From: Selenomonas ruminantium AC2024
Lineage (GTDB): Bacteria; Bacillota; Negativicutes; Selenomonadales; Selenomonadaceae
Assembly (NCBI RefSeq): GCF_000687995.1
Contig: NZ_JIAC01000001.1
Coordinates: forward strand, 2,480,001 to 2,544,000
Length of the DNA stretch: 64,000 bases
Direction: 5' to 3'
A program made the position numbers and the translations under genes. Under the pieces are notes generated by a model. The model did not search any database, had not been told where the DNA came from, and saw nothing but the letters and a program-made list of their open reading frames with translations. This document shows, piece after piece, positions 598 through 14,985 of this stretch. How positions within the stretch are numbered: the stretch's first letter is position 1; the number at the start of each line of letters is the position of its first letter.

Positions 598-1206
598 TTA
601 CGAATGAACCGGCATCATTTTTTCCACCAATCGCTTGACGGGCAATACTTTCAGAATCAGACAGCAGATGGCAAATTCCGTCAGCAGGAAGGAGCCATTA
701 AAGGTCAGAGAGTACAACACGGGACTCATGCCCTCCGGCGCATAGCTGCCGAAGAACACCACGCCGGAAATGAAATGGCACAGAAACCGCCCGCCGAAGG
801 CCAGCGCCGTTCCCCCATACAGATGATTGCGGCAGAGACCTGCCAGCCCCATGGCCATAAAGGGCAGCGGATAATCAAAAAGTACCTGCACCGGATGGAG
901 GATAAAGGGGTCCTGTATGATATTAATCATGCCATAGACAAAACCTGCCAATACTCCAGTGCCCACACCAAAGCGATAGGCAATCAGAATCAACGGCAGC
1001 ATTGCGCCCGCCGTCACACTTCCCCCCTGCGGGAGATGAAAGATATGCAGCTGGTGCAGAACCACCGCCAGCGCTAGCAGCAGCGCCGAAGTAACCATCG
1101 TGTGCGTGTCAAAGGACTCATGACGGACACGCATAAGGCCAATGGCCAGTATCAATACGCCCAGCAGCGCCAACAGCACCACTGGCTGTGCAACAATTTC
1201 CAACAA
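598..1206 (-). CDS. thiT: Thiamine transporter S component ThiT (ECF type)
   Basis: Integral membrane substrate-binding subunit of an energy-coupling-factor transporter, expected to bind thiamine and to dock on a shared EcfAAT module encoded elsewhere. The family signature is clear: LPQGGSVTAG near residues 58-67, then a Tyr/Phe-rich segment with PVQVLFDYPLPF and GLAG, then GRFLCHF. About six hydrophobic segments are present. I chose a TTG start at 1206 because GGGAAGGCAGGG precedes it at good spacing and the 202-residue length fits the family. In-frame codons continue to 1314, but that start would overlap a TATAAT at 1303-1308. No TPP riboswitch consensus was recognised upstream. Transcribed divergently from the GH114 gene. 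Confidence 0.85.
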   Translation of the reverse strand: MLEIVAQPVVLLALLGVLILAIGLMRVRHESFDTHTMVTSALLLALAVVLHQLHIFHLPQGGSVTAGAMLPLILIAYRFGVGTGVLAGFVYGMINIIQDPFILHPVQVLFDYPLPFMAMGLAGLCRNHLYGGTALAFGGRFLCHFISGVVFFGSYAPEGMSPVLYSLTFNGSFLLTEFAICCLILKVLPVKRLVEKMMPVHS

Positions 1207-1302
1207 AACTTTTCCCTGCCTTCCCCAACCATATACAATGAACAACTGCGCCCATCTAGGACAAGTTGCCCCGTCAATATCATCATAATACATACATTTA
1301 TG

Positions 1303-1308
1303 ATTATA
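1303..1308 (-). promoter_or_regulatory. Candidate -10 of thiT
   Basis: TATAAT on the minus strand lies about 97 bases before the chosen TTG start. No good -35 was found at 16-18 bases. The call rests on the perfect hexamer and the AT-rich surroundings only. Confidence 0.35.
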
Positions 1309-1366
1309 AACCACTCACCGTTATTTTTCTACCGCAATCTCAACAAAACCTTTGACCAAAGGCATC

Positions 1367-1395
1367 TTGCTCCTGGCGGGCAAACATGCTATAAT
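1367..1395 (+). promoter_or_regulatory. Sigma-70 type promoter of the GH114 gene
   Basis: TTGCTC at 1367-1372 and TATAAT at 1390-1395 are separated by 17 bases, 36 bases before the start codon at 1432. AAGGAAAGG at 1418-1426 is the ribosome-binding site. Confidence 0.7.
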
Positions 1396-1431
1396 TGCTC
1401 ATCACTAAAATATCATCAAGGAAAGGCAATC

Positions 1432-2433
1432 ATGATGAACAATGACAAGACCTGGTGGCAGCGTTTATTTTTAGGGCTCGGAATCCTGGCTGCCAGTACA
1501 GCAACCCTGTCGGGCAGCGAAGCCTCTGCTCCCGCCCGCTATGACACCGCCATGGTAGGGCTTCTGGGGGAACTCCACGACTACGCGCACAGACACAATC
1601 CCCGGTTCCAGCTGCTGGCCAATGGCGGCTCCTCCTTATATCTGCCCATCGATGGCAATACGCCTGCCAATGTCGGCAAGATGCTGCAGGTTGTGGATGG
1701 ACAGCTGGCAGAATCCGTCCATTATGGCTTTGACATGAAAGATGGCGAGAAAACGCCTCCCGAGGAAAAGGAATTTTTCCTGCAAACCTTGGATGCCGCC
1801 AAAGCAGGCGGCCTGCCCGTATTCGTGCTGGACTATGTAAAAGACGCCCCTCAGGCGGCAGATGCTGCGCAGCAATGCCTAACCAAGGGCTACATTCCGC
1901 TGGCCACCCCCTATCGCGATTTAGACCAACTGCCCCCGTACCCATCTGCCAATATAAATACGGCAGATGTTACTCGGCTGCAGGATGTCAAAAATTATTT
2001 GATTCTCCTCAATCCCGGTAAATTTTCTTCCCGCGAAGAATACCTTTCCCAGCTGCAAGCTACCGACTACGATATGCTGATTATCGACCTCTACGCCGGC
2101 GATACATTGCTGACTGCTGGTGAGGTGGAAAAACTGAAGCACAAAGCCCAAGGCGGGCGCCGCCTGGTGCTGGCCTATATGAGCGTCGGCGAAGCGGAAA
2201 CCTATCGTCACTATTGGCAGCCGGAATGGAAAAAGAAGCGGCCCCATTGGCTGGACGCCCCCAACGATGACTGGGAGGATAACTACCGCGTAAAATTCTG
2301 GATGCCGGAGTGGAAACACCTGCTCTATGGCAATCCTAATGCCTATCTGGATGAAATTTTGGCCGCCGGCTTTGACGGCGCTTTTCTCGATGTCATTGAT
2401 GTCTACCAGTATTTCAAAAATGGAAACGAATAA
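1432..2433 (+). CDS. Secreted TM1410/GH114-like glycoside hydrolase, Pel-locus associated
   Basis: A 333-residue protein with a signal peptide (positively charged start, hydrophobic segment LFLGLGILAASTATLSG). The C-terminal half resembles the MJ1477/TM1410 family of GH114-like enzymes, known for endo-alpha-1,4-polygalactosaminidase activity. Supporting motifs are YDMLIIDLY, RRLVLAYMSVGEAE, a tryptophan-rich WQPEWKKKRPHW segment and the barrel-end FDGAFLDVIDVY, whose acidic residues are plausible catalytic ones. Pel is rich in galactosaminoglycan and proteobacterial PelA carries a hydrolase domain, so this gene probably supplies that activity as a separate protein. The N-terminal half (about residues 40-180) has the look of a second ligand or regulatory domain that I do not recognise. 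The start is set by an AAGGAAAGG site and a promoter; a second ATG follows immediately at 1435. Confidence 0.75.
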   Translation: MMNNDKTWWQRLFLGLGILAASTATLSGSEASAPARYDTAMVGLLGELHDYAHRHNPRFQLLANGGSSLYLPIDGNTPANVGKMLQVVDGQLAESVHYGFDMKDGEKTPPEEKEFFLQTLDAAKAGGLPVFVLDYVKDAPQAADAAQQCLTKGYIPLATPYRDLDQLPPYPSANINTADVTRLQDVKNYLILLNPGKFSSREEYLSQLQATDYDMLIIDLYAGDTLLTAGEVEKLKHKAQGGRRLVLAYMSVGEAETYRHYWQPEWKKKRPHWLDAPNDDWEDNYRVKFWMPEWKHLLYGNPNAYLDEILAAGFDGAFLDVIDVYQYFKNGNE

Positions 2434-2434
2434 A

Positions 2435-2478
2435 AATAATCCCCTTGGCGGTTCTGATATACCTCCAAGGGGATTATT
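2435..2478. terminator. Bidirectional terminator between GH114 gene and beta-barrel gene
   Basis: AATAATCCCCTTGG pairs with CCAAGGGGATTATT around a 16-base loop, with A/T-rich flanks on both sides. It sits between two convergent stop codons (2433 and 2491), so it can serve both genes. Confidence 0.8.
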
Positions 2479-2490
2479 ATATATATGCAC

Positions 2491-4707
2491 TTAAAAGGAT
2501 TGATTCCACATCAGGCTCATCTTCCAGCCCTGGTATGAATCTGTCGCACTGCCCTGGATATAATAGCGTTCGACTTTGGCCCGCAGTTCCGAGGTATCAT
2601 CGATGCGATACGCATAGCCAAGCGTCAACGCATACAAATGACGATTGCCCCGCCAGGTATTCGTGCGCCAATTGTAGCTTTGTCCGTAGCTTCCGCCACC
2701 GTTAAGGAGTACATAGCCCCGCTGCTTTTCATCAAACTGATGTGTTAAGCCCCAACCGCCATAATAGCGATAGATGTCCTCGACATCACCCGCCTGATAA
2801 TTTCCCCATAGGTAATACTGCCAGGAATTGCGCTCGTCGATATTCTGACTACCGTAAAGCTGTAAAGTCCAATCCTCGCCATCTTCAAAGCGCCCGCTGC
2901 TATATCGGTTGCGATAGTAAGCGCTAACGGCATTTACATGGGTCAGTTTCGCCGAAAACTGCTGCTGCTCGCCGATATGACGATATTCGATTTCCTGCTG
3001 GAACTTATTGCGGGGAGATATTTCCATGGCAACATCCGGGTCATAAAGTCCTTTCTCTGTATCTTCATATTCTATCCGATAACTGTAATCCCGCCTAATC
3101 GTGTAGCTTAACCTGCCTGTCAGACTGTCCCTTTCCGTAATTCTATGGGTTGCCTCAATTTCCGGCGTAAACTGCCAGCCTTCACTGAAAGAATTAAAGG
3201 CCGCCAAATTGTCCGCCATCATGGCATTTTGATGCGCATTTTGCTCTCCTGTCGGCGCGTTGACGGTCAGCTTATAATGCACATCGTTGATTTTATGGTC
3301 ATTTTTATAGGTAAGGCCCAGCTGCGTATCCGTCCAGCCACTGACGCGGCCATGCGGAAGGCCGGTATCGGAAACCAGCCAGCCGGTAGACAGGGAAACA
3401 TCCCATTTTTTCTCCGTCGCATAAAATTCAACAGGCTGATACAGCTGGTATCCTCTGGGCAAACCAGCCCCATGCCAGGTGTAATATTCAAAGCCGGTGC
3501 TAATCCCCTTGCCTTCCCCAAAGTGCGCCAAATCATAATCGGCTTTTGTCTTCCAGTTTTGGGTTTCTGTTAAATTATTTTCCGCAATTGCAACACCGCG
3601 TATGGCTTCCTCATGCCAGTTTTCAGCCTCCGTTACATCATTGGTACTTTCCTTCACATCTATTTCTGCTTCGGCCTGCTCAGCCGTTAAATCCCGCACC
3701 AGTTCCCGGGCATCCTGTTCGGCATCTTCCGCAGCCATACGGGCATCCTGCAGGTCATCGAGCTGGCTGTTCAGTGCATCCAGCAAGGCCTCGGCATCAT
3801 CCACCTCAGCATCCAGGGATTCCAGCTGCTTTTCATAGGCCTCCCATTGGGCTTCTTCAGCCTGCCGCTCCGGTGCAGCTGCCTGTGCCCCATTCACCAT
3901 GGCCATAACATCGTTCAGCCGGTTTTGTGCATATCCCACACTTTCCCAAGCCTGACGGATACGTTCTTCCAGTCCATCGTTTTCCGTCCGCAGATGCCCC
4001 AGTTCCCTGCCGAGTCGTTCATAGGCTGCCTGTGTGCTGTTGCGGCGGGACTGCGCCTCTGCCACAGCCCCCTCCTGCGCCCATACCTGCGGGGCAAAAT
4101 CTGCCACCGCCTGTTGGGCGGCAATGGCCTCCCGAGTGCGCTGAGCACTTTCCAGCTGCGCATTCGCCAATTCCTGAGCGATACGCTGCAGATTCAGGCT
4201 GGCCTTCTCCAAATTCTGCTGTGCTTCCCGAAGGGCGCTGGCCGCATTTTCCTTATCTGCTTTTGCCTGCTGCAAATCAGCTTTAGCCTCGAGCAAGGCC
4301 TGGGCCGCTTCTGCAGCATTCTGCTGCGCCTCCTTGAAATCCCTTATTCTGTCCCTGTCATTGCGCAGGGATTCCAAAGCCGCCGGAATATCATTCATGG
4401 CATTGCTGATACCTGCCGCTTCCCCGGCCATAGGCGGCAATAAAGCCAAAGCACTGATGGAAGCCGCTTTCGCGGTCTGCCGCAGGGCCGCCTCCTCCCG
4501 CATCTTCCGCTTACGGCTGCGAGTCATGCGCATTTGCTGCAGAACAAATCTTTTGAGGCGGGGTTCTTCCCCCACTTGTGCCTTAGCCAACCTTTTACGG
4601 CGCTTGCGGCTCATGCGAAAGGCCACTGCGCCCCAGCGCTTCCGGCCCTCCTCTTCCAGCTGAGCTGCTTCTGCCAGCCGCTGTCTTGCCCTACGGCTTG
4701 TTCTCAT
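2491..4707 (-). CDS. Coiled-coil plus outer-membrane beta-barrel protein, last gene of Pel locus
   Basis: A 738-residue protein of three parts. Residues 1-75 are very rich in Arg and Lys and precede a hydrophobic Ala/Leu segment ending in GEAAG that could be a signal peptide with an extended n-region. Residues about 105-390 are an almost uninterrupted Ala/Glu/Gln coiled coil. The rest has alternating aromatic beta-strands (KWDVSLSTGWLV, ELRAKVERYYIQG) and ends in Phe (MWNQSF), typical of Bam-inserted outer-membrane barrels. The start is supported by AAGGAG at proper spacing and a 17-base overlap with pelG. By position it could be the outer-membrane export channel, filling the role of the TPR-barrel protein PelB. 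No homology to PelB is claimed; function is inferred from context. Confidence 0.7.
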   Translation of the reverse strand: MRTSRRARQRLAEAAQLEEEGRKRWGAVAFRMSRKRRKRLAKAQVGEEPRLKRFVLQQMRMTRSRKRKMREEAALRQTAKAASISALALLPPMAGEAAGISNAMNDIPAALESLRNDRDRIRDFKEAQQNAAEAAQALLEAKADLQQAKADKENAASALREAQQNLEKASLNLQRIAQELANAQLESAQRTREAIAAQQAVADFAPQVWAQEGAVAEAQSRRNSTQAAYERLGRELGHLRTENDGLEERIRQAWESVGYAQNRLNDVMAMVNGAQAAAPERQAEEAQWEAYEKQLESLDAEVDDAEALLDALNSQLDDLQDARMAAEDAEQDARELVRDLTAEQAEAEIDVKESTNDVTEAENWHEEAIRGVAIAENNLTETQNWKTKADYDLAHFGEGKGISTGFEYYTWHGAGLPRGYQLYQPVEFYATEKKWDVSLSTGWLVSDTGLPHGRVSGWTDTQLGLTYKNDHKINDVHYKLTVNAPTGEQNAHQNAMMADNLAAFNSFSEGWQFTPEIEATHRITERDSLTGRLSYTIRRDYSYRIEYEDTEKGLYDPDVAMEISPRNKFQQEIEYRHIGEQQQFSAKLTHVNAVSAYYRNRYSSGRFEDGEDWTLQLYGSQNIDERNSWQYYLWGNYQAGDVEDIYRYYGGWGLTHQFDEKQRGYVLLNGGGSYGQSYNWRTNTWRGNRHLYALTLGYAYRIDDTSELRAKVERYYIQGSATDSYQGWKMSLMWNQSF

Positions 4708-6184
4708 GGTTATCGCTCCTTGCCGTTTCCAGATTTACATACTTATCCCCGTAAAGCCACAGAGTGAACCTCGTCAGAATCCCGCTGGTGGAACGGTAAA
4801 ACACCGGCTGGGAACAGAACACCAGATAATTAATCCGCTGCGCAAAATGATTCAGCTTGACAAAGGCCCAGATAAACGACAGCGCCGCCGCCAAAAAGAA
4901 AGTGAACCCGTAACTGTAGCTGCCGCCATAGTAGAGTCCCCAGAGCCCGAGCAGCAGATTGGACAGAAAAAACACTGCCGACAAACTCTGAACGCTTTTT
5001 TGATAGTCAAAGTAAACCAGCAGAATATACACCAGCTGCAGCAATCCGGTAAAGAAGGCCCCAAAGAGCAGTACATTATACATATTCACCTGATTGTAGG
5101 TAATACCCGACCAGCTCAGAAGATAGTTGCCCACTGCCAGCGCCACCAGCGTGAACACCAACTGAAACTCCGTAATATGCCGCAGCTCAAACCAGAGTGT
5201 ATGCAGCAAATCCTTCCGGGCATCATCAATCTCCCGAAAGTTGCCCTTCTGGGTAATATAAGCAAAGTAATGCGCATAGCGCTCATAAAAATTCGTCTCC
5301 ACCGTCACCACAAACATGGTCATGAGCGGCAAAATGGACAGGAAGGCGTAAAAGGTCACCACATCATAGATGGGTGAGTAAAGATACGTACCACCTACCA
5401 TTACACCCCAATCCCCCTGCCAGATGATGATATTGGGCAAAAAGAGTCCCAGCATATAACAGGTTGCCGTAAGAAAGAGCCGCCAATGACGTTCAAAATA
5501 CGGCAGAAAGGCAAAATTCTGCCCACCTTTGTTCAGGCCAAAGTAACTGGTAATGTGCAGCAAAAAGAGCAGATTGATAAGCCCCATCCCTATATCCATG
5601 GCGAGCAGCCCGGACTGTTCCGGCTGCAGGCTGGTCTGGCTCAAAAAAATCCAGACCAGAAAAACACTCACGAGCACACCGGCCAAATAGCTGATGAGCA
5701 GGCGGGAATATCGCTTCACTGCCGACAGATAAACGCTTTCCGTCCAGGCCAGCAATAGTTCCGCAAAAAAGAGATACCCAAGCCACTTGGTCAGAAGCGG
5801 CAAGGGCTTATCCCAAAAGAAAATCCCCGCAGCCACAGCTCCCAGCACCGTGATGATAGCCCCCATGCCAAAGAGGGACGCAGTCACATTTTCAAAGCGG
5901 CCCAAGGACAGGGAATCGGCCAAATAACGGGTCAAAACCATGATAAAGCCGGCCGATAGAATCTGGGAAAACACAAAGGCGTATACCACCGAAGCCACAA
6001 AGACCTGACTGGCTTCCCCCTCAATGCCATAATAGGCAAAGAGGCTCTGCACGGCCAAGACCATACTGGTCATCAGGGCAAAGGGGCCGGCCGTGATGAT
6101 GGCCGAATAGGAATATGCTTTTATATGGCCTGCCGCCGTGCGGGCCGTAAACAATTTCTTTAACTCAAAACCTACGCCTGCCAC
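4691..6184 (-). CDS. pelG: Pel exopolysaccharide membrane transporter PelG
   Basis: A 497-residue multi-pass protein of the MOP flippase superfamily with about twelve hydrophobic segments. The start MAGVGFELKKLF closely matches the characteristic PelG N-terminus. In the Pel machine it forms the inner-membrane complex with PelD, PelE and the glycosyltransferase PelF and is thought to move the polymer across the membrane. The start is GTG, 11 bases after GGAGG inside the end of pelF. It lies 7 bases after the pelF stop and overlaps the downstream barrel gene by 17 bases, so translation of the three is probably coupled. Confidence 0.92.
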   Translation of the reverse strand: MAGVGFELKKLFTARTAAGHIKAYSYSAIITAGPFALMTSMVLAVQSLFAYYGIEGEASQVFVASVVYAFVFSQILSAGFIMVLTRYLADSLSLGRFENVTASLFGMGAIITVLGAVAAGIFFWDKPLPLLTKWLGYLFFAELLLAWTESVYLSAVKRYSRLLISYLAGVLVSVFLVWIFLSQTSLQPEQSGLLAMDIGMGLINLLFLLHITSYFGLNKGGQNFAFLPYFERHWRLFLTATCYMLGLFLPNIIIWQGDWGVMVGGTYLYSPIYDVVTFYAFLSILPLMTMFVVTVETNFYERYAHYFAYITQKGNFREIDDARKDLLHTLWFELRHITEFQLVFTLVALAVGNYLLSWSGITYNQVNMYNVLLFGAFFTGLLQLVYILLVYFDYQKSVQSLSAVFFLSNLLLGLWGLYYGGSYSYGFTFFLAAALSFIWAFVKLNHFAQRINYLVFCSQPVFYRSTSGILTRFTLWLYGDKYVNLETARSDNHENKP

Positions 6185-6190
6185 TTTCCC

Positions 6191-7615
6191 TTATGCCTCC
6201 TGCACATACATCTGATAAATCTCCCGGTACCGTTCGATGAACAGCTCATAGGTATAGCCGCGCCGGGTGCGCTCATAACCAATGTTGCCCATTTGCCGCC
6301 GCAGCTTAAAATCCTTGCCCAGACGAATCATTTCCCGAGCCATGGCTTCAAAATCCATCGGGGCCACCACAGCTCCTGCCGTGCCCAAATCATCCTGACT
6401 GTCCCCATAGATAAGTTCCCGGCAGCAGCCCACATCCGTAGCCACAAAGGGACGATGCGCCGCAAAGCCCTCCAAAATCGCCAATGGCTGCCCCTCACTG
6501 ATGCTGGACAGCATTAAGAAATCCATTTTAGGCAGATACTCTGCCACATTGACGGAGCCCGCAAACTCCACATGATTTATGCCCAACATGGAAACCGTCT
6601 GCTGGCATAATTCGTAATATTCCTTGTCCTCCCCATAGCCCCCCATAATCACCAGGCGGGCATCGGGAAATTCTTCCTGAAACAGGAAAAACGCCCGGAG
6701 CAAGGTCACAATATCCTTAATCGGCACGACCCGCACCACCGCACCGATGGTTAACGGCCCCTCATGGGGCTGCAACTCCCCGATTCCGGCGAAGCGCTCC
6801 ATATGCACACCATTGGGCACAATGCCAATCTTATGCGGGGCACAGCCCAAATCCTGCTCAATTTCGGCATTGTGTTCAAAAAGGGTATACACCCTGTCCG
6901 CCGTCTTATACGACAGCTTTGCCAAATTATAAAAATACTGAATCCAGACGGACTTAAAATCCCCCTGCGCCCAGTCACTTTTGATGATTTCCACTTCCCG
7001 CTCCCGGGAGTAGATGCCATGCTCCGTGATGATAAAAGGTTTATGGTAAATTTCGGCCGCCATGGCGCCAATCACGCCGCAGTACCCTGTAGCCACACTG
7101 TGATAGACATCTGCTTTCGGCAGTTCCTGCTGCAACAGATAAAGCAGGGGCAGCAGCATGGAGCGAATGGTCCAGAAAAAATCCGTAAAGGGCAGATAAC
7201 TGTATTTTTCCATATAGACCCGCTGAATGATGTCAAAGAAATCACTGGACATAAATATATCCAGTGAGCTGGCAAAGCGGCGGCGCTCACGGAAAATCGA
7301 AGCCAGCTTATGGATATCGAGCGGCCTGCCACCCATAACCAAATCATAGATGGCTTCCCGCTCTTCTGCCGTCAGGATATTCTCCAGCATATCCTGCGAA
7401 CGCTGGTTCAAAATCTCATCGAGAAATTCTTCCTGTATTCCCTTTAAGTTGGGTGGAAACTTATACTTGAAAGCGCCTCTATCCTTGGATTCAGCCCCGA
7501 TGGAATAGATGAAGAATTCATGCTGGGGAAGCCCCTGAATGAGCATCTGGCACCAGGAGGACACGCCCCCCACCACATAGGGATAGGAACCTTCCGTCAA
7601 CAGACAGATTCTCAT
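6191..7615 (-). CDS. pelF: Pel polysaccharide glycosyltransferase PelF
   Basis: A cytoplasmic GT4-family glycosyltransferase of 474 residues that polymerises the Pel sugar chain from UDP-activated amino sugar. The start MRICLLTEGSYPYVVGGVSSW is the hallmark PelF opening. Further motifs are EHGIYSREREVE, the nucleotide-sugar region VPNGVHMERF and SISEGQPLAILEGFAAHRPFVATDVG with its conserved acidic residues. The ATG at 7615 overlaps the upstream stop codon as ATGA and is preceded by GGAGAAAG. A longer in-frame start at 7633 is less likely because it would move the family-typical N-terminus inward. Confidence 0.93.
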   Translation of the reverse strand: MRICLLTEGSYPYVVGGVSSWCQMLIQGLPQHEFFIYSIGAESKDRGAFKYKFPPNLKGIQEEFLDEILNQRSQDMLENILTAEEREAIYDLVMGGRPLDIHKLASIFRERRRFASSLDIFMSSDFFDIIQRVYMEKYSYLPFTDFFWTIRSMLLPLLYLLQQELPKADVYHSVATGYCGVIGAMAAEIYHKPFIITEHGIYSREREVEIIKSDWAQGDFKSVWIQYFYNLAKLSYKTADRVYTLFEHNAEIEQDLGCAPHKIGIVPNGVHMERFAGIGELQPHEGPLTIGAVVRVVPIKDIVTLLRAFFLFQEEFPDARLVIMGGYGEDKEYYELCQQTVSMLGINHVEFAGSVNVAEYLPKMDFLMLSSISEGQPLAILEGFAAHRPFVATDVGCCRELIYGDSQDDLGTAGAVVAPMDFEAMAREMIRLGKDFKLRRQMGNIGYERTRRGYTYELFIERYREIYQMYVQEA

Positions 7616-9438
7616 TTGGCTTTCTCCTTCCATTGAATGATGGTTTCCGGTTTTTCCGTTTCAATCATATAGGCATCATCACCGATTTTACGGACACTTC
7701 CCCCGGTAACTTCTGCAATCTCTCTTGAAGAACGCAGCACAAACCGCAAGGGATAATGATAATTCCAGCAGTTCAGTATCAGCTTATCCTGTTCCCGCGT
7801 CACCCGGTAATCCATGTCCAGATAATCGGCAAAATAAGCCACACATTCAGAATCTGTTACAGGGCGCAGCCAGCCAAAGCGGTCATTTATCTCCGCCAGG
7901 AAGTTATGGAAGCCCTGCACCATCATCGCCCAAGTCAAATCCTTGCTTTCCTCGTAGAATAGTTCATCGGGATGCACAAAATGCGAAAAAACGCCAATGT
8001 AATTAATCACGCTGATATTTTCCCACATGTTCTGCCTATCTGGCGCATAGCCGGAGGTAAACCGGGGAATCTCATAGGTTCCATCCGCATTGCGCCCAAA
8101 GTCCTGATAATAGCCCCGCTCCGAATAAAGGCCATCAAAGAGAGACGAATACACTTTAAGCTCTGGAAATACTTCCTTTACTGCTTCGTGGCCCTCAGGG
8201 CTTAAAATATCCGAAGGCGGCACATAGGACTGAAAATCGTAGTCCGGATAGGCGCTCTTGATATAACGGCGCAATTCCTGCAGGCTCTCCACCATATCTT
8301 CCTTGCTTTCCCAAGGCACATAATCCAGTTCGTCCTGATTATATCCTGCAGGTGCCAGCGACTGATGATTGTAGCCATGCAAGCCCAATTCGCCACCCAT
8401 GTCGAGAAGTTCCCGGCCATAGACGATTAAGTTGTCCCGGGCCTGTCTTCCCTGCGTCGGCACAAACGGCCCCTTTACCTGGTCCCCATAGGACTCAATA
8501 ATCAGCCCGGTATACTTCAAGGAATACTTATCTGCACACTCCCTCATAAAGGGCCACCAGATATGACGAAAAAAATCGGCCGTATCTACATGCAGTTCGT
8601 CATATATCTTATCAAAGTTGCCCTCCGGCACAGGCGCAGGAAAATCGTCGATAAAAAACAGCTTGGTGCCCACTACGGGATAAATGCTATCTTCACCGCA
8701 ATGAGCCAGCATTGCCGTCAGCACGCCAATATTGGTCTTGTCATCCCGCACAGCGCCATTGTAGAACAGGCATTTTCCCTGACCATAAGCATGCTCCCAT
8801 AACAAGGGACTGCCATCCAAGGCAGCTATATGCACCACATCATCATCCTGCAAGGTTACCGACAGGGTATCCGTATGGTACTGCGTCCCCTCGCCAAAGG
8901 AAAAGCCCTTACCCGCAAAGAGAAAATCTGTATGCAGGCGGATGCCCAGAACACTCTTTTGCCCACCGGCCACCGTAAAGCCTGCCATTTCCTGGCAGAT
9001 ATCCGGCACGCCCACGCCAGCCTCCACTTCCGGATGCATCATAAAGGCCACCGTGCCGCCTTGGGCCGCATAGTCTGCCAGCTTAGGCAGAACGACGGTT
9101 TTATTCCAGTTGCCGGCAGCCAATAATACGCCGCGATAGGAGGCATCCACCGCTGTATCCTCGTAGATGGAGCAGGAAACCGCTTCTTTCTTCTGCTGTT
9201 CCAGGAGCCAAGCCAGGCGGTGATTGGCAAAGACGCTGGGCACATCCCGCGGGTCATAGAGGATAAGGTACTTCTCTTTCTCTCCTTGCGTATGCGTACC
9301 CTGAAGGATATTCTGCGGCACGAAATTCAGATTACGGAAATAATCCAGTTTCAAAAAGCCATCCATTCTGCTGAACTGAAAGAAACAGCCCAACAGGATA
9401 ACCAGGACAATAACGCCTGCAATACCGCGCTTATCCAT
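7612..9438 (-). CDS. PelA-type DUF2194 polysaccharide deacetylase
   Basis: A 608-residue protein anchored by one N-terminal membrane segment (GIAGVIVLVILLGCFFQF), with the rest outside the cytoplasmic membrane. It carries a flavodoxin/GATase-like N-terminal part and a C-terminal NodB-like deacetylase. Candidate metal ligands are the Asp pair in FFIDDF near residues 262-266 and the two His of HGYNH near 354-358. It probably removes acetyl groups from Pel in the way the PelA deacetylase domain does; the hydrolase half of PelA is absent here and seems to be the separate GH114 protein. ATG at 9438 follows GGAGGAGG and overlaps pelE by 8 bases; an upstream in-frame extension to 9513 is unlikely. 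Confidence 0.85.
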   Translation of the reverse strand: MDKRGIAGVIVLVILLGCFFQFSRMDGFLKLDYFRNLNFVPQNILQGTHTQGEKEKYLILYDPRDVPSVFANHRLAWLLEQQKKEAVSCSIYEDTAVDASYRGVLLAAGNWNKTVVLPKLADYAAQGGTVAFMMHPEVEAGVGVPDICQEMAGFTVAGGQKSVLGIRLHTDFLFAGKGFSFGEGTQYHTDTLSVTLQDDDVVHIAALDGSPLLWEHAYGQGKCLFYNGAVRDDKTNIGVLTAMLAHCGEDSIYPVVGTKLFFIDDFPAPVPEGNFDKIYDELHVDTADFFRHIWWPFMRECADKYSLKYTGLIIESYGDQVKGPFVPTQGRQARDNLIVYGRELLDMGGELGLHGYNHQSLAPAGYNQDELDYVPWESKEDMVESLQELRRYIKSAYPDYDFQSYVPPSDILSPEGHEAVKEVFPELKVYSSLFDGLYSERGYYQDFGRNADGTYEIPRFTSGYAPDRQNMWENISVINYIGVFSHFVHPDELFYEESKDLTWAMMVQGFHNFLAEINDRFGWLRPVTDSECVAYFADYLDMDYRVTREQDKLILNCWNYHYPLRFVLRSSREIAEVTGGSVRKIGDDAYMIETEKPETIIQWKEKAK

Positions 9439-10342
9439 GGATTGCCTCCTCCTGTCTGTGTCCATCTTTGTCCCAATAGCGTATAGCCCGCAAGGCCTCC
9501 TGCGACAACTCAATCGGGCAGGCCTTTAGTTCCCGGATTTTCTGCTGTAATTGTCGGGGCTTACGCCAGCTCTGATAGAGCCGGATATACATCATATAGC
9601 TTTCCTCGTTCTCTGGAAAACGTTCCTTCAATTCCGCACAAACCAGCTCTGCCTCCACATAATTCTTCGTAGCCAAAAGATGGTCTATTTCTTCAATATA
9701 ATATTCCATCTTATCCGGGCAGGCTTTTTTCAAATAATCCAATAAACCGATATAATCTCCCTGCTTCTTGGCATAGGTTACATGGTCGATAAATTTCTCC
9801 TGTGCCAGATAGTTCTTTAGCAGCTGGGCGTATTCCTCCAGCCGGGGCACATTCTCCTGCCCTTCACCACTTACCATCATGGTTTCGCGGGAAAACAGTT
9901 CATTTTCCAGTTTTTCCATGCGGGCCGTCAGCAGTGCCACCGCATAATAGGCGATTTCCCTGTCCCGGTCGTGCATGGCCATTTGCAAAATGCTTTCATT
10001 ATCCACCACAGCCTGCTTGATGGCTCCGGTAAAAAACTGGCGCTTCTTCTGGACATCATCCACCAGAAAGGCATCGTTCAAAGGAATGATATCCGCATTC
10101 AGATGGGTTCCCTGAAAGAACGCCTCTCCCTCCTGCTCTGCTTCAGCCTGGCGGCCTCCATTCAACGCCAGCAGCAGGCAGCAAAGACGATAGCTCACCA
10201 TCAGCAACACACCAAAGAAGGGAATGGCCAAAGCGATTACCGTTTCCGTCACCACCTGCAAGCGGGGCTTGCGCCATGAGTTCCCGAGAAAATAAATCAA
10301 GGTCACAGCCAGATGCAGCAATAAAATTGCATAAAAATCCAT
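9431..10342 (-). CDS. pelE: PelE-like inner-membrane TPR protein
   Basis: A 303-residue protein with two hydrophobic segments at the N-terminus (FYAILLLHLAVTLIYFLG and VIALAIPFFGVLLMVSYRLC), then a helical cytoplasmic region with TPR-like helix pairs (NYVEAELVCAELKERFPENEE). This architecture and its place between pelD and the pelA-type gene match PelE, a scaffold linking PelD to the synthase complex. The primary sequence alone would not identify it, so the name rests on architecture and synteny. The ATG overlaps the pelD stop by one base (TGATG). Confidence 0.75.
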   Translation of the reverse strand: MDFYAILLLHLAVTLIYFLGNSWRKPRLQVVTETVIALAIPFFGVLLMVSYRLCCLLLALNGGRQAEAEQEGEAFFQGTHLNADIIPLNDAFLVDDVQKKRQFFTGAIKQAVVDNESILQMAMHDRDREIAYYAVALLTARMEKLENELFSRETMMVSGEGQENVPRLEEYAQLLKNYLAQEKFIDHVTYAKKQGDYIGLLDYLKKACPDKMEYYIEEIDHLLATKNYVEAELVCAELKERFPENEESYMMYIRLYQSWRKPRQLQQKIRELKACPIELSQEALRAIRYWDKDGHRQEEAIHG

Positions 10343-12444
10343 CAGCCCACCGCCTCACAAACCGTTGTTGCCACACCAGCTCCCTGCAAGCGCTCCTGCA
10401 CCATGGCTGTAATCTTCTTATCCGCATCCGGCAGCAGGATGTAGACACCATCGCCGCCTACCCCCACAAAATCCTCGTTACGGATAACATGCCCCAGGCG
10501 TCTGTCAAGGCCTTCGTAATCCAAATCTCCCATAACCACTTTCAACACGGCCACAGTCAAATCCTCCTGCAGCGTACGCCGGTTTTGCAGTTCCTGAATG
10601 ATTTTCCGGAACTCTTCCGCCTGCAGGATACGGGTTCCTGCCACGAAGCGCTTCTCCTGCACCTCCTGCTCATAGCGGTAAGCTCTGGCCATAGACGCCG
10701 AAATCAGGCGCGTGGTAATGGATAACAGATTCTGCTGATAAAGGCTCCACTGCTCGAAGCCCAGACCAAAAATGGTAATAACGGCAATGACCTTATCCTG
10801 ATATACGATGGGAGCGGCCAAATCCGGTGTATCCTTGAGCAAATCCTTATTCACAAAAATCGTCTGTTCCTGTAACAGAACCTGCAGATAGGAATAGTCC
10901 TCCACGCGCAAAGAACGGGGCTGACGTCCGGCCAGCTTGCCCATGCGCACCTTTTGCCGCAAAAAGTGGCCGTCTGTTCCCACCACATAGATGGCAATAT
11001 CGTCCACATTGAGGATTTGCGCGGTTACCGCCGTTGCCTGCGTGAAGATATTTTCCTGCTCCACACTGTCGAGCTGCTTGATAATGCGGTACAAGCGTCC
11101 GATACTGTCATCAGTATTGACAATCTGCCGATAGAGCTTATCCTTTACCGCCAGATTATCCTCATAGAGCTCCTTCATAAAGGACTGGCGCTCCTGACTC
11201 TGGCGCTTCTGCCACTCCACAGCCTCTCGCTCAAAACGCCGGGCATCGGCAAAGTATCCGGTCAGGGCCGCCGTAAAGAGATAGGCCGTCAGATGCAGGA
11301 TATTTTCCGGTACATAGGTAAGGGAAATAAGCTCCCCGCCACGAGCCAGGGAGCCCATAATAAAGATAAACGCCGCCGCCACCATGGCGATAAAGGACTG
11401 TCTCTTGCCGTAGAGCAGTCCCATGGCACCGATATAGACAAAATTCAAATCCAGCTGCGTCTGCGGATTTACCGTGGTCCCCTGCTGCCAATAAGCAATA
11501 CCTGCCATCAGAATTGCTCCTACGGCATTTTCCACATAGGGAATGATTTCCCTGCCCAAAACCCGCCATTTAATCCGCTGCTTCCGGGCCTGTGCCTCCA
11601 GCTGGTCAGCTTCCACCTTGGCCTGAATATAGTCCCAGGTTTGGGCCAGGCCGGACTTCCGGTCATACTTTAACCGCCAGCCCAATTCATGCTGAGCCTT
11701 TTTACTCTCCAACACCGGCTGCACATAGGAAAAGGATTTGAAGCTGGCCGCATCATCATAAATATCCGGGATTTCCGTTACATTTCTGACCCAATCCGCA
11801 AAGCCTCTTGCCGACAGGCCTTCCCCCGTGCCAAGGTTCAGTTCCTCCCCCTGGCAGCCACGGGCCACCGCCCGATAGATGCCGTATACGGCATCTGCCG
11901 AATACAAAAAGTCGCGGGGTGTTGTTTCATCATCCATGCGCGGCAGGACTTTCTTTTTCAAGCTGGCATAGAGTGTACGCGCCACCAGTCCGTCCTGCGG
12001 GCCACTGTCCGGGCCATAGACCTCCGGCAGGCGGATAATGGTCAACGGAATAACGGCCCACTCCGACCAGACCTTAACAGCCTTTTCCGCCACCAGCGCC
12101 ATGCCATCAGCCGCCCGTTCAGACGTTTCACCTCGTACAGCAGCTGCCGTGGAAATAAAATACACCGCTTCCACCGCATACTCATAGGCCAGTGCCAAGA
12201 CATCCGCCAGCCGCTGCAGGGCATTCATGCGCTCAGCTGCCTGCCGTTCCGCCGGCCACACATAAATGAGCACAGGTATATTGTAAATGCGCAACATTTC
12301 CCGAGTCTGTTCCAGACTATCCGTGCCCCGGAAAAATTCCCAATTTTCCTTGATGAACAGCCGTTCCAGCTGCTCATCCCAGAAAGGTTTTACACCTGTC
12401 AGGATAACTCTGCGTTTTAGCTGATTAACCTTCTCCTCAGCCAT
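10342..12444 (-). CDS. pelD: PelD with N-terminal SDR-like domain, GAF and degenerate GGDEF
   Basis: A 700-residue regulator of the Pel synthase. Residues about 10-290 resemble an NAD-dependent epimerase (RLPEVYGPD, DFLYSADAVYGIYRAV, LNLGTGEGLS). The Gly-rich nucleotide loop reads TGVKPFWDEQL and the catalytic Tyr-x-x-x-Lys is not evident, so this part is probably inactive. About four membrane segments follow (residues 320-400), then a coiled linker, a GAF-like domain and a C-terminal GGDEF fold. Its active-site loop is GDGVY instead of GGDEF, so no cyclase activity is expected. The RxxD inhibitory-site motif upstream is kept (RNED, residues 655-658), which fits c-di-GMP binding as in PelD. 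ATG at 12444 follows AAAGGAG, 20 bases after holA. Confidence 0.88.
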   Translation of the reverse strand: MAEEKVNQLKRRVILTGVKPFWDEQLERLFIKENWEFFRGTDSLEQTREMLRIYNIPVLIYVWPAERQAAERMNALQRLADVLALAYEYAVEAVYFISTAAAVRGETSERAADGMALVAEKAVKVWSEWAVIPLTIIRLPEVYGPDSGPQDGLVARTLYASLKKKVLPRMDDETTPRDFLYSADAVYGIYRAVARGCQGEELNLGTGEGLSARGFADWVRNVTEIPDIYDDAASFKSFSYVQPVLESKKAQHELGWRLKYDRKSGLAQTWDYIQAKVEADQLEAQARKQRIKWRVLGREIIPYVENAVGAILMAGIAYWQQGTTVNPQTQLDLNFVYIGAMGLLYGKRQSFIAMVAAAFIFIMGSLARGGELISLTYVPENILHLTAYLFTAALTGYFADARRFEREAVEWQKRQSQERQSFMKELYEDNLAVKDKLYRQIVNTDDSIGRLYRIIKQLDSVEQENIFTQATAVTAQILNVDDIAIYVVGTDGHFLRQKVRMGKLAGRQPRSLRVEDYSYLQVLLQEQTIFVNKDLLKDTPDLAAPIVYQDKVIAVITIFGLGFEQWSLYQQNLLSITTRLISASMARAYRYEQEVQEKRFVAGTRILQAEEFRKIIQELQNRRTLQEDLTVAVLKVVMGDLDYEGLDRRLGHVIRNEDFVGVGGDGVYILLPDADKKITAMVQERLQGAGVATTVCEAVG

Positions 12445-12464
12445 AAAAACATTCGCTCCTTTTC

Positions 12465-13508
12465 CTATGCCTCCCCACGGCATAAGTCAATCACTATGTG
12501 CTCTAAAACTTCGTCTCCTGCTTGTCCTGTTTTCAAAAAATAATCTGCGTCTATTAGTTCTAACATATTGCGTTTGAGCACGGCAGCGGGAAACTGCATA
12601 GCCGCCCGCCCCAACTTCTCGGCAATAAAGGGATTCAGCTCCAAAGGCTTGGCCAATGCTTTTCCCCGGATGCCCTGTTGCTGCAGTACCTGCGCCTGCC
12701 AAAGCTGCCGCACATGGCGGGTAAGCAGTGCCAGAATCACCGTAAAATAAGTGCCATCATTTAACTGCCGCCGCAAAAGCTGCAAGGCCTTTTTCGCCTT
12801 GCGCTCGCTGATGGCATCCAACAGGGCAAATACCGACACCTCTGGCAACCCCGCAAAGACCTTTTCCAAAAGCGCCCGGGTGATGCGCCTGTCCTGGGAA
12901 AACAGCGCCAGCTTGTCAAACTCCCTGTCCAAAAATTCCAGGGAAATCGTCTGCATGGTGCTGACGACACCACTGAAATAGGCCATGGCCTCTCCATCCA
13001 TATCCTTGTTAATGGTTTGGAGCTTGCCTTGCAGCCAGTCATTGATGTTCCAAGCCCGGATAGCTTCTGCCTCCAGCACCATGCCATTTTTTTCTATGGT
13101 CTTGTAAATTTTCCGCCGCTTATCGGCCTTGCCATTCTGGACAAAAATCACATAGCTGAACTCCGGCATATCCGCCAAAGTGGCCAGCAGCCGTTCCAGC
13201 TTTTTGTCCTTGCCAGCTTTTTTCTCCTCCCCCTCGTTCTTATCCTTGAACAAGCTCGTGTCCTGCAGCAGCAGCACATTCTTGCTGGCAAAAAAAGGCG
13301 CGGTCTCGATAAGCCCCACTAAATCATCAGAGTCAACAACCCCCGATATTTTCTGCATTGCCTCACCCTGCTCCTGCGGGTTGGCAAACAATCGTGAAAG
13401 AATTCGCTCCTGCGCCTTTTCAATATAATAATGTTCCTCGCCTGCCAGTAAATAAACGTGTTTCAGTTCACCCCGCTGCAGGCTGGCCATAAAATCGCCA
13501 AATTTCAA
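12465..13508 (-). CDS. holA: DNA polymerase III subunit delta
   Basis: A 347-residue clamp-loader subunit that opens the beta sliding clamp. It shows the family start KHVYLLAGEEHYYIEKAQERI, the segment FFASKNVLLLQD and the C-terminal RRQLNDGTYFTVILALLTRHVRQLWQAQ and EHIVIDLCRGEA. The start is TTG, eight bases after GAGG. A TATAAT on the minus strand at 13541-13546 could be its promoter. Only 20 bases separate it from pelD, so the pel genes may be transcribed through holA; no separate pel promoter was found in that gap. Confidence 0.92.
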   Translation of the reverse strand: MKFGDFMASLQRGELKHVYLLAGEEHYYIEKAQERILSRLFANPQEQGEAMQKISGVVDSDDLVGLIETAPFFASKNVLLLQDTSLFKDKNEGEEKKAGKDKKLERLLATLADMPEFSYVIFVQNGKADKRRKIYKTIEKNGMVLEAEAIRAWNINDWLQGKLQTINKDMDGEAMAYFSGVVSTMQTISLEFLDREFDKLALFSQDRRITRALLEKVFAGLPEVSVFALLDAISERKAKKALQLLRRQLNDGTYFTVILALLTRHVRQLWQAQVLQQQGIRGKALAKPLELNPFIAEKLGRAAMQFPAAVLKRNMLELIDADYFLKTGQAGDEVLEHIVIDLCRGEA

Positions 13509-13540
13509 CGTTTCTACCTCAACATTAAGATTATCTTAGT

Positions 13541-13546
13541 ATTATA
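13541..13546 (-). promoter_or_regulatory. Candidate -10 for holA-pel transcription unit
   Basis: Perfect TATAAT on the minus strand, 33 bases before the holA TTG, with no convincing -35. It is the only promoter-like element seen between the gdhA terminator and pelD. Confidence 0.4.
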
Positions 13547-13582
13547 GCGTAGTCTGAGAAGTTTTTCCATTAAAAAAAGATT

Positions 13583-13614
13583 AAAAAATGACCGGCCAAC
13601 AAATTGACCGGTCA
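13583..13614 (-). terminator. Rho-independent terminator of gdhA
   Basis: On the minus strand TGACCGG pairs with CCGGTCA around a short loop and is followed by a run of six T and further T-rich sequence. It lies 22 bases after the gdhA stop. Confidence 0.85.
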
Positions 13615-13635
13615 GAGGAAAATCACGTATTACTA

Positions 13636-14985
13636 TCAGACTAACCCATGAGCCAGCATAACATTAGCCACCTTGACAAAGGCGGTGATGTTGGCACCGG
13701 CTACCAAATCGTCGGGGTCAGCATATTTTTCAGCATTGGCCTTGGCATTCTTGTAGATGTTGGCCATGATGTCCTGCAGCTTGCCATCAACTTCTTCAAA
13801 CGTCCACTGGAGTCTTTCGGAGTTCTGGGCCATTTCGAGAGCGGATACGGATACGCCGCCGGCATTGGCTGCCTTGCCCGGTGCAAAGAGCACCTTGTTC
13901 TGCTGGAAGTAAGCGATAGCATCCAGCGTGGACGGCATATTGGCACCTTCACCAACAGCGATTACGCCGTTAGCCACAAGGGCCTTCGCACTTTCGAGGT
14001 CGATTTCGCCCTGGGTTGCACACGGCAGAGCCACATCGCATTTGACCGTCCAAACGCCCTTGCAGCCTTCATGGTATTCAGCCTGCGGATGCGTTTCCAC
14101 ATATTCCTTGATGCGGCCGCGGCGAACCTGCTTGATTTCCTTAACGGCATCGAGGTCAATGCCATTCGGGTCATAGACATAGCCGTTGGAGTCGGAGCAG
14201 GTAACAACCTTGGCACCGAAAGCCTGTGCCTTTTCGATGGCGTAGGTTGCCACGTTACCGGAACCGGAAACTACAACCGTCTTATCCTTAAGGCTGATAT
14301 CCTTGGCATCGAGCATATTCTTGACGAAATAGAGCAGGCCGTAACCGGTAGCTTCGGTACGGGCAAGGCTGCCCCAATAGTCCACGCGCTTACCCGTCAG
14401 GACGCCTGCATCATAGCTGTCGCGGATGCGCTTGTACTGACCGTAGAGATAGCCGACTTCACGGCCACCTACGCCGATATCACCAGCCGGAACGTCCACA
14501 TCCGGGCCAATATGGCGATAGAGCTCGGTCATAAAGCTCTGGCAGAAATGCATGACTTCATTGTCGGATTTGCCATGCGGGTCAAAATCCGAGCCGCCTT
14601 TGGCACCGCCAATCGGCAGACCGGACAGGGCATTCTTGAACACCTGCTCAAAGGCCAGGAATTTCAAAATATCGAGATTTACGCTGGGATGGAAACGCAG
14701 ACCGCCTTTGTAGGGGCCAATGGCGCTGCTCATCTGCACGCGGAAGCCGCGGTTTACATGAACTTCGCCCTTATCGTCCTGCCAGGGTACGCGGAAGGTA
14801 ATCACGCGTTCTGGCTCGATAATACGTTCCAAAATCTTCTGTTCCTTGAATTCAGGATGTGCTTCCAGCACAGGAATAACGCTTTCCAGAACCTTCGATA
14901 CCGTATTTTTGAACTGCGGCTGGTCCGGGTCGCGTTTTGCAATCAGGTCTAATGTGTCTTGTACATACTGTTTCATGTCTGCCAA
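13636..14985 (-). CDS. gdhA: Glutamate dehydrogenase (NADP type, hexameric)
   Basis: Catalyses the reversible reductive amination of 2-oxoglutarate to glutamate, the main ammonia-assimilation route in many rumen and gut Negativicutes. At 449 residues it has the normal length of bacterial hexameric GDH. Motifs include RGFRVQMSSAIGPYKGGLRFHP with the catalytic-region lysines, LPIGGAKGGSDFDP, VDVPAGDIGVGGREVGYLYGQYK and the Rossmann loop GSGNVATYA. The start is TTG at 14985, eight bases after GGAG; the next in-frame ATG (14976) is too far from that site. Monocistronic: its own promoter at 15044-15072 and its own terminator. Confidence 0.96.
   Translation of the reverse strand: MADMKQYVQDTLDLIAKRDPDQPQFKNTVSKVLESVIPVLEAHPEFKEQKILERIIEPERVITFRVPWQDDKGEVHVNRGFRVQMSSAIGPYKGGLRFHPSVNLDILKFLAFEQVFKNALSGLPIGGAKGGSDFDPHGKSDNEVMHFCQSFMTELYRHIGPDVDVPAGDIGVGGREVGYLYGQYKRIRDSYDAGVLTGKRVDYWGSLARTEATGYGLLYFVKNMLDAKDISLKDKTVVVSGSGNVATYAIEKAQAFGAKVVTCSDSNGYVYDPNGIDLDAVKEIKQVRRGRIKEYVETHPQAEYHEGCKGVWTVKCDVALPCATQGEIDLESAKALVANGVIAVGEGANMPSTLDAIAYFQQNKVLFAPGKAANAGGVSVSALEMAQNSERLQWTFEEVDGKLQDIMANIYKNAKANAEKYADPDDLVAGANITAFVKVANVMLAHGLV

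Follow-up and report, generated by a model that had tools for sequence, protein, structure and literature searches.

How does the exopolysaccharide Pel leave a cell with two membranes if its locus carries neither of the known outer-membrane export genes? For this major biofilm polymer, export has so far been known through PelB/PelC in Proteobacteria, and in Gram-positives as a matter of crossing one membrane. The window analysed here, a stretch of 64,000 nucleotides from Selenomonas ruminantium AC2024, is contained in a single contig of 2.83 Mb (99.99% complete; genome G000). An original prediction had described within it pelD, pelE, a PelA-type deacetylase gene, pelF and pelG, followed by a gene for a coiled-coil beta-barrel protein. 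We regard it as probable that this locus is a Pel cluster of the Gram-positive layout with an outer-membrane exporter barrel of its own, in which long helices replace the TPR scaffold of PelB.

Gene content of the pel locus

All six predicted genes were found at the coordinates given for them (Table 1), but the outer limit set for the locus, 12444, corresponds to an ATG inside pelD; the first start of that frame lies at 12483. Gene order, the split PelA and the epimerase-like domain of PelD are the same as in the Gram-positive pelDEADAFG cluster, and an epimerase/SDR domain on PelD occurs in many, albeit not all, Gram-positive pel clusters (PMC7112168, as far as accessible). In the available portions of two reports (PMC7112168, PMC7112194), Gram-positive pel clusters are described without an outer-membrane part, whereas the window combines their layout with an added barrel gene. 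The C-terminus of PelD is degenerate and GGDEF-like, as read from its motif. The pelE product gave no convincing family match in a Pfam scan, and the pelA deacetylase gene may really begin further downstream than the TTG at 9513. The proposed overlap of 17 bases between pelG, which ends at 4691, and the barrel gene, which starts at 4707, was reproduced exactly, and the start codon of the barrel gene is supported by an AAGGAG shortly upstream of its ATG.

Table 1 Features of the pel locus and of the barrel protein (window coordinates)
Feature	Position	Strand	Basis
pelD	10342..12483	-	epimerase-like N-terminal domain PF01370 (6.6e-8) and GAF PF01590 (3e-5), both over cut-off
pelE	9431..10342	-	named by position and similarity to counterparts in related loci
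pelA, deacetylase half (DUF2194)	7612..9513	-	PF09960, E 2.7e-123
pelF, GT4 glycosyltransferase	6191..7633	-	NF038011, E 3.2e-111
pelG, inner-membrane Pel transporter	4691..6184	-	PF16933, E 5e-121
Coiled-coil/beta-barrel gene (738 aa), proposed outer-membrane exporter	2491..4707	-	ORF
Basic N-terminal region, residues 1-80, 28 K/R, two RM[S/T]R repeats	4468..4707	-	ahead of hydrophobic segment
Hydrophobic signal-peptide-like segment, residues 81-99	4411..4467	-	read by eye
Long helix 1, residues 106-236	4000..4392	-	AlphaFold2 model
Long helix 2, residues 285-394	3526..3855	-	AlphaFold2 model
C-terminal beta-barrel, residues 399-738, ends in Phe	2494..3513	-	AlphaFold2 models
GH114-type gene	1432..2433	+	PF03537, 2.5e-16; TIGR01370, 2.8e-38, below its cut-off

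A GH114-type gene, absent from the original prediction, lies convergent with the barrel gene. Its product is probably a secreted hydrolase and, judged from sequence, likely the separate hydrolase half of PelA. GH114 relatives were present in 21 of the 28 Pel stretches fetched from PelG-containing genomes, in 20 of them on the strand of the barrel gene; the exception (L099) has the gene inverted relative to the barrel, the same arrangement as in the window. In one locus (L072, genome G191), pelG is separated from the barrel gene by two PelA-deacetylase-like genes and a GH114 gene. In the window, positions 2440-2480, where the GH114 gene and the barrel gene converge, hold an inverted repeat (CCCCTTGG...CCAAGGGG), possibly a two-way terminator.

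Predicted structure of the barrel protein

The protein had been described as a long coiled coil with a C-terminal barrel ending in Phe. AlphaFold2 predicts two helices and then a barrel, and the final residue is Phe. The full model, based on the window protein and 13 relatives (639 residues), has a mean pLDDT of 85.9; its helices span model residues 7-137 and 186-295, and its strands extend from 300 to 638 of 639. A barrel-only model with 12 relatives reached a pLDDT of 89.4 and a pTM of 0.82. With 131 and 110 residues and a rise of 1.5 angstrom per residue, the helices would measure about 20 and 16 nm, and the stretch between them is mostly of low confidence and differs in length among relatives. 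Helix 2 continues directly into strand 1, and the whole barrel is predicted from a single chain. DSSP assigned 23 strand elements to the barrel-only model; merging seven neighbouring pairs, each apparently a single strand interrupted by a bulge or a change in length, gives 16 in our reading. The barrel would then have about 16 strands with both ends on the periplasmic side, and most of the long or variable loops fall on the outer side, except at the second turn, where three relatives (L068, L088, L089) have an insertion. In S. ruminantium ATCC 12561 (L122:8840-12421), an in-frame insertion enlarges one outer barrel loop by about 400 residues or more, and a shorter in-frame insertion is found in an outer loop in G267 (L090:4998-7781).

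Compared with solved structures, the C-terminal half aligned over its full length with outer-membrane barrels. The full model aligned with CdiB, BamA, PgaA, PelB, BcsC, AlgE and porins (listed Z 16.5-19.5). For the barrel alone, the listed Z values were 16.6-19.5, with PelB not among the best 50 rows, and Foldseek placed PelB third (TM 0.52). As modelled, the protein has a real barrel of the outer-membrane type. This fold does not settle the function, because exporters, porins, BamA and two-partner secretion barrels score alike.

The PelB of Pseudomonas, which acts with PelC, resembles the window protein in its proposed place in the pathway and in joining an outer-membrane barrel to an N-terminal helical part, which in PelB is periplasmic; the PelB structure 9h80 aligned with the full model over 263 residues (Z 18.4, rmsd 3.9). 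However, PelB has a TPR superhelix and PelC as partner, whereas the window protein has two long helices, gives no TPR match and is encoded after pelG. Aligning the profile of the barrel family with that of PelB, the latter built from three sequences, gave an hhalign probability of 0.4% over 36 columns. PgaA and BcsC have a similar barrel fold (Z 18.4 and 18.0) and GT2 synthases as partners, as apparently do some members of the barrel family, but they carry TPR scaffolds, and their models matched none of 32 barrel sequences of the family at E 0.01. The amyloid secretion barrel FapF, which is likewise built of a coil and a barrel, was among the better Foldseek matches to the model, but its barrel chains are shorter and its cargo is a protein. 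AlgE, which works with AlgK, and EpsX/EpsY are barrel exporters without fused TPRs, like the window protein (Z 17.3 for AlgE). AlgE and EpsX are 18-stranded. EpsX has a short OPX protein as its partner, and pairs of this kind, with 18-stranded barrels, are put forward as a third export system (PMC9601211, in the part available). No OPX family was found among the ten proteins encoded at 601-14985, i.e. the locus and its flanks.

A crude estimate of the lumen charge, made with a cationic cargo in mind, gave 18 acidic against 17 basic residues for the window barrel. This balance does not support an exit of Pel through the barrel, since the PelB lumen is anionic (PMC12141448, accessible text). Pel-linked barrels were more acidic than others at p 0.04 only (24 vs 8 sequences, kinship ignored).

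Ahead of the helices, the hydrophobic segment forms a putative signal-like sequence, with cleavage expected near its end. Counted with a loose pattern, RM[S/T]R-type repeats occur at least once in 14 of the 32 barrel sequences, with four in L075 and L090, and gave no significant match elsewhere in the genome of the window. At E 0.1, family scans of the window protein revealed neither TPR nor SLH; the matches listed were mostly coiled-coil proteins, all below their cut-offs, and included no autotransporter family. Against solved structures, the best 60 of 177 rows for the full-length profile were coiled-coil and other long-helix proteins, and the barrel region alone had zero matches by sequence. 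When the 32 barrel sequences were scanned against barrel families, three matched Phenol_MetA_deg (best 3.4e-6) and one each DUF5755 (0.0018), PFU (0.0092) and OMP_myx_plus (7.7e-5); the barrel of the window matched none at E 0.01. Its closest named match is a protein from a Selenomonas ruminantium MAG, with 97% identity.

Linkage to pelG and the search for known exporters

In a survey of 300 sampled Negativicutes genomes, PelG was found in 47 genomes belonging to 21 of the 97 genera, and the barrel in 56 genomes belonging to 29. The barrel was present in all 47 PelG genomes compared to 9 of the 253 without PelG (Fisher p 3.3e-46, shared descent ignored). The expectation that the barrel gene would stay beside pelG across the Negativicutes held: it lies downstream on the same strand in 44 of the 47, with a gap between match ends of 0.4-2.8 kb in 43 genomes and of 6.8 kb in G191. 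In the remaining three, the barrel is on another contig, and in G261 the gene runs off two contig ends. Among 398 genomes sampled from the phylum, about 384 of them outside the class as judged by list order, five matched the barrel, all from the family of the window. The original prediction had put forward a separate outer-membrane solution for Pel in diderm Firmicutes at large; the linkage and the missing profile similarity to PelB support such a solution, but the scope covered is the Negativicutes.

In one genome (G010; L062:8899-12306), a single open frame of 1135 codons runs from PelG through an internal signal-like sequence and the coil to the barrel, possibly a fusion from inner to outer membrane or a polyprotein. 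The fusion rests on one genome, because three family mates gave no match to it at E 1e-10. It is consistent with an exit of Pel through the barrel.

The prediction that the locus has neither PelB-type TPRs nor PelC was borne out, and a search for the pair elsewhere in the complete genome G000 found neither. The PelC profile had no match there at E 0.01, while a held-out Azospirillum control was detected at 4.4e-21; among the 47 PelG genomes it gave one weak match (G117, E 0.0046). The PelB profile had no match in G000 even at E 10, and a held-out Cupriavidus control scored 3.5e-131. Built from three sequences, this profile covers only PelB proteins resembling those of beta- and gamma-proteobacteria; the first held-out control, a split Azospirillum PelB, scored only E 0.026 and was missed at E 0.01. 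The absence of PelB is weaker than that of PelC because the split Azospirillum PelB was barely detected, and a very divergent PelB in G000 could have been missed by the profile. In other genomes, three weak matches to the profile were rejected: that in G260 (9e-4) has stops inside, and those in G250 (0.0046) and G133 (0.0061) extend over no more than a piece of the TPR region (129 and 92 of 1261 positions).

Models of related exporters were searched as well. BCSC_C and PgaA_barrel had no match in G000 at E 0.001, with an E. coli control positive for both. The BcsC barrel model matched none of the 300 genomes, and the PgaA barrel model matched 12, four of them over the cut-off (G011, G034, G272, G117). 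Six of these genomes also have PelG (G011, G117, G039, G203, G263, G009), two of them with matches over the cut-off. In the genome scan, TPR proteins from three loci (L137, L138, L140), two of them from the genus of the window, matched the PgaA barrel model. In the protein scan, L137 and L138 matched both TPR and PgaA-barrel families, with the barrel score of L138 slightly under the cut-off; in L140, the TPR matches were below the cut-off and the PgaA-barrel match, 2.4e-6 in the genome scan, was absent at E 0.01. The gene after the TPR protein of L138 encodes a deacetylase with a GHL13 domain, and similar frames follow in L137 and L140. We take GHL13 to be the hydrolase half of PgaB, which would make the L138 neighbour PgaB-like. 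Negativicutes can carry TPR exporters; the PelG-linked gene is nevertheless the coil-barrel.

Instead of exporting Pel, the barrel protein might anchor Pel at the surface or tether the outer membrane to the wall, with Pel leaving through another, unrecognised pore. OmpM is an outer-membrane tether in diderm Firmicutes (PMC10628300, in the text accessible), and long helices would fit such a role. However, the barrel protein gave no match at E 0.1 to an SLH domain such as that of OmpM, its gene follows pelG in nearly all PelG genomes (44 of 47), and G000 revealed no alternative pore among PelB, PelC, BcsC barrels and PgaA barrels or, searched at the locus only, OPX proteins. We therefore consider a tether or anchor improbable. 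Trimeric autotransporters are built from a coiled coil plus a barrel, and the window protein resembles this plan; that it acts as a surface adhesin or autotransporter, binding Pel with an extracellular coiled coil, is still less probable. Veillonella uses trimeric autotransporters in biofilm formation (PMC7549365, accessible portion), but in the AlphaFold2 model one chain provides the entire barrel and helix 2 runs into strand 1, and no autotransporter family is among the matches listed. That an ordinary porin came to sit in the operon by chance is the least probable explanation, as porins equal exporters in the fold-comparison scores but a bystander would be expected neither in 47 of 47 PelG genomes from 21 genera, in 44 of them after pelG, nor, through further members, near other exopolysaccharide synthases.

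Related barrels, other Pel exits and a model of export

Eleven barrel copies do not adjoin PelG, leaving aside those PelG genomes whose only copy sits on a different contig; seven of the eleven lie near other polysaccharide synthases. Two (G049, G064) follow GGDEF, DUF2334, GT2 and BcsB-like genes, three (G053, G153:C12, G213) are near GT2 and deacetylase genes, with the deacetylase match of G053 below the cut-off, and two (G010:C19, G153:C14) lie beside a cellulose-type synthase with GT2 and PilZ domains, with an MBOAT gene nearby. Three copies (G001, G206, G248) had no synthase among the part of the neighbours that was scanned, and the match in G051 is at a contig edge. The cellulose-type synthase subfamily was found in 3 of the 300 genomes (G010, the query's own, G153 and G051), all of which have the barrel; the synthase adjoins it in two, and the third case is at a contig edge. 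One barrel family goes with several partners.

Repeated switching between partners was considered and dropped. A first barrel tree, which included the orphan copies L075 and L076 as well as L092, where barrel and PelG lie on different contigs, seemed to force at least two changes of the Pel label. With these three sequences removed, one change is forced and two occur on the best tree, while the four partner types need three changes, the minimum possible. The claim was abandoned because only one change is forced without the three sequences, and by the barrel tree the Pel-linked barrels may have a single origin.

The view that diderm Pel loci export through PelB and PelC also needs qualification, as pelFG can have other companions. 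A pelFG cluster on a Sulfitobacter plasmid (L105:7849-13924) has a Poly_export gene of the OPX type and no annotated PelB. Cetobacterium (L103) and Fusobacterium vincentii (L108), likewise diderms, have a short pelD, pelA, pelE, pelF and an extended PelG, followed by a protein of 305-316 residues; a GH114 gene comes first in L103 and last in L108. The C-terminal extension of the fusobacterial PelG (L103:10427-13451, L108:10415-13684) shows a lipobox-like segment and a repetitive tail. It comprises about 245 residues or more, with PF16933 covering positions 1-460 of 705 in Cetobacterium. We read the 305-316-residue protein as barrel-like from its sequence; that of Cetobacterium had no Pfam match. 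Like the Negativicutes barrel it is encoded right after pelG, and no PelB is seen in the locus, but it lacks the coil, and the two show no profile similarity (0.3%).

In a co-culture study of F. nucleatum, pelF, pelG, a hypothetical gene and a GH114 gene were among the changed genes; pelF, pelG and the hypothetical gene had negative values, and pelF and pelG are stated to be reduced (PMC9848294, in the accessible part). From its locus number, we infer that the hypothetical gene is the barrel-like one. PelF and PelG homologs occur in all S. sputigena strains compared, among them ATCC 35185, which was shown to form biofilm, and are absent from ATCC 33150, which formed none (PMC13339959, available sections). 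A literature search of partial coverage found no report describing the exporter proposed here.

We propose the following route for Pel. By homology, PelF would polymerise the chain, PelG together with PelD and PelE would pass it across the inner membrane under c-di-GMP control, and PelA would partly deacetylate it. The two helices, about 16-20 nm long, would reach into the periplasm as a scaffold in place of TPRs, the polymer would exit through the barrel of about 16 strands, and the neighbouring GH114 enzyme would trim the product. The gene content, the linkage to pelG and the fold prediction were observed here, as was the lack of any hit to PelB or PelC; as far as genes, linkage and fold go, the original prediction stands. 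We infer that secretion runs through the barrel, that the helices lie in the periplasm and that the protein may touch PelA or PelG.

The barrel protein probably works like PelB without being a member of the PelB family. Its own family probably represents a separately evolved outer-membrane exit channel, because it accompanies the Pel genes throughout the sampled class and also occurs beside other synthases; related barrels appear to serve other synthase-dependent polymers in Negativicutes. More broadly, Negativicutes may have evolved a general-purpose coiled-coil barrel exporter without detectable sequence similarity to PelB, PgaA, BcsC or AlgE, which was recruited by Pel, cellulose-type and deacetylase-linked GT2 synthases. 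The synthesis modules would then be older than the pore and separable from it, with the Fusobacteria having found another exit, an idea whose chances we judge to be even.

If the proposed export route is true, the outer-membrane step of Pel secretion would be replaceable independently of the synthase. The barrel gene would also mark Pel producers among oral and rumen selenomonads, and the transition between diderm and monoderm cell envelopes would become testable on one secretion machine.
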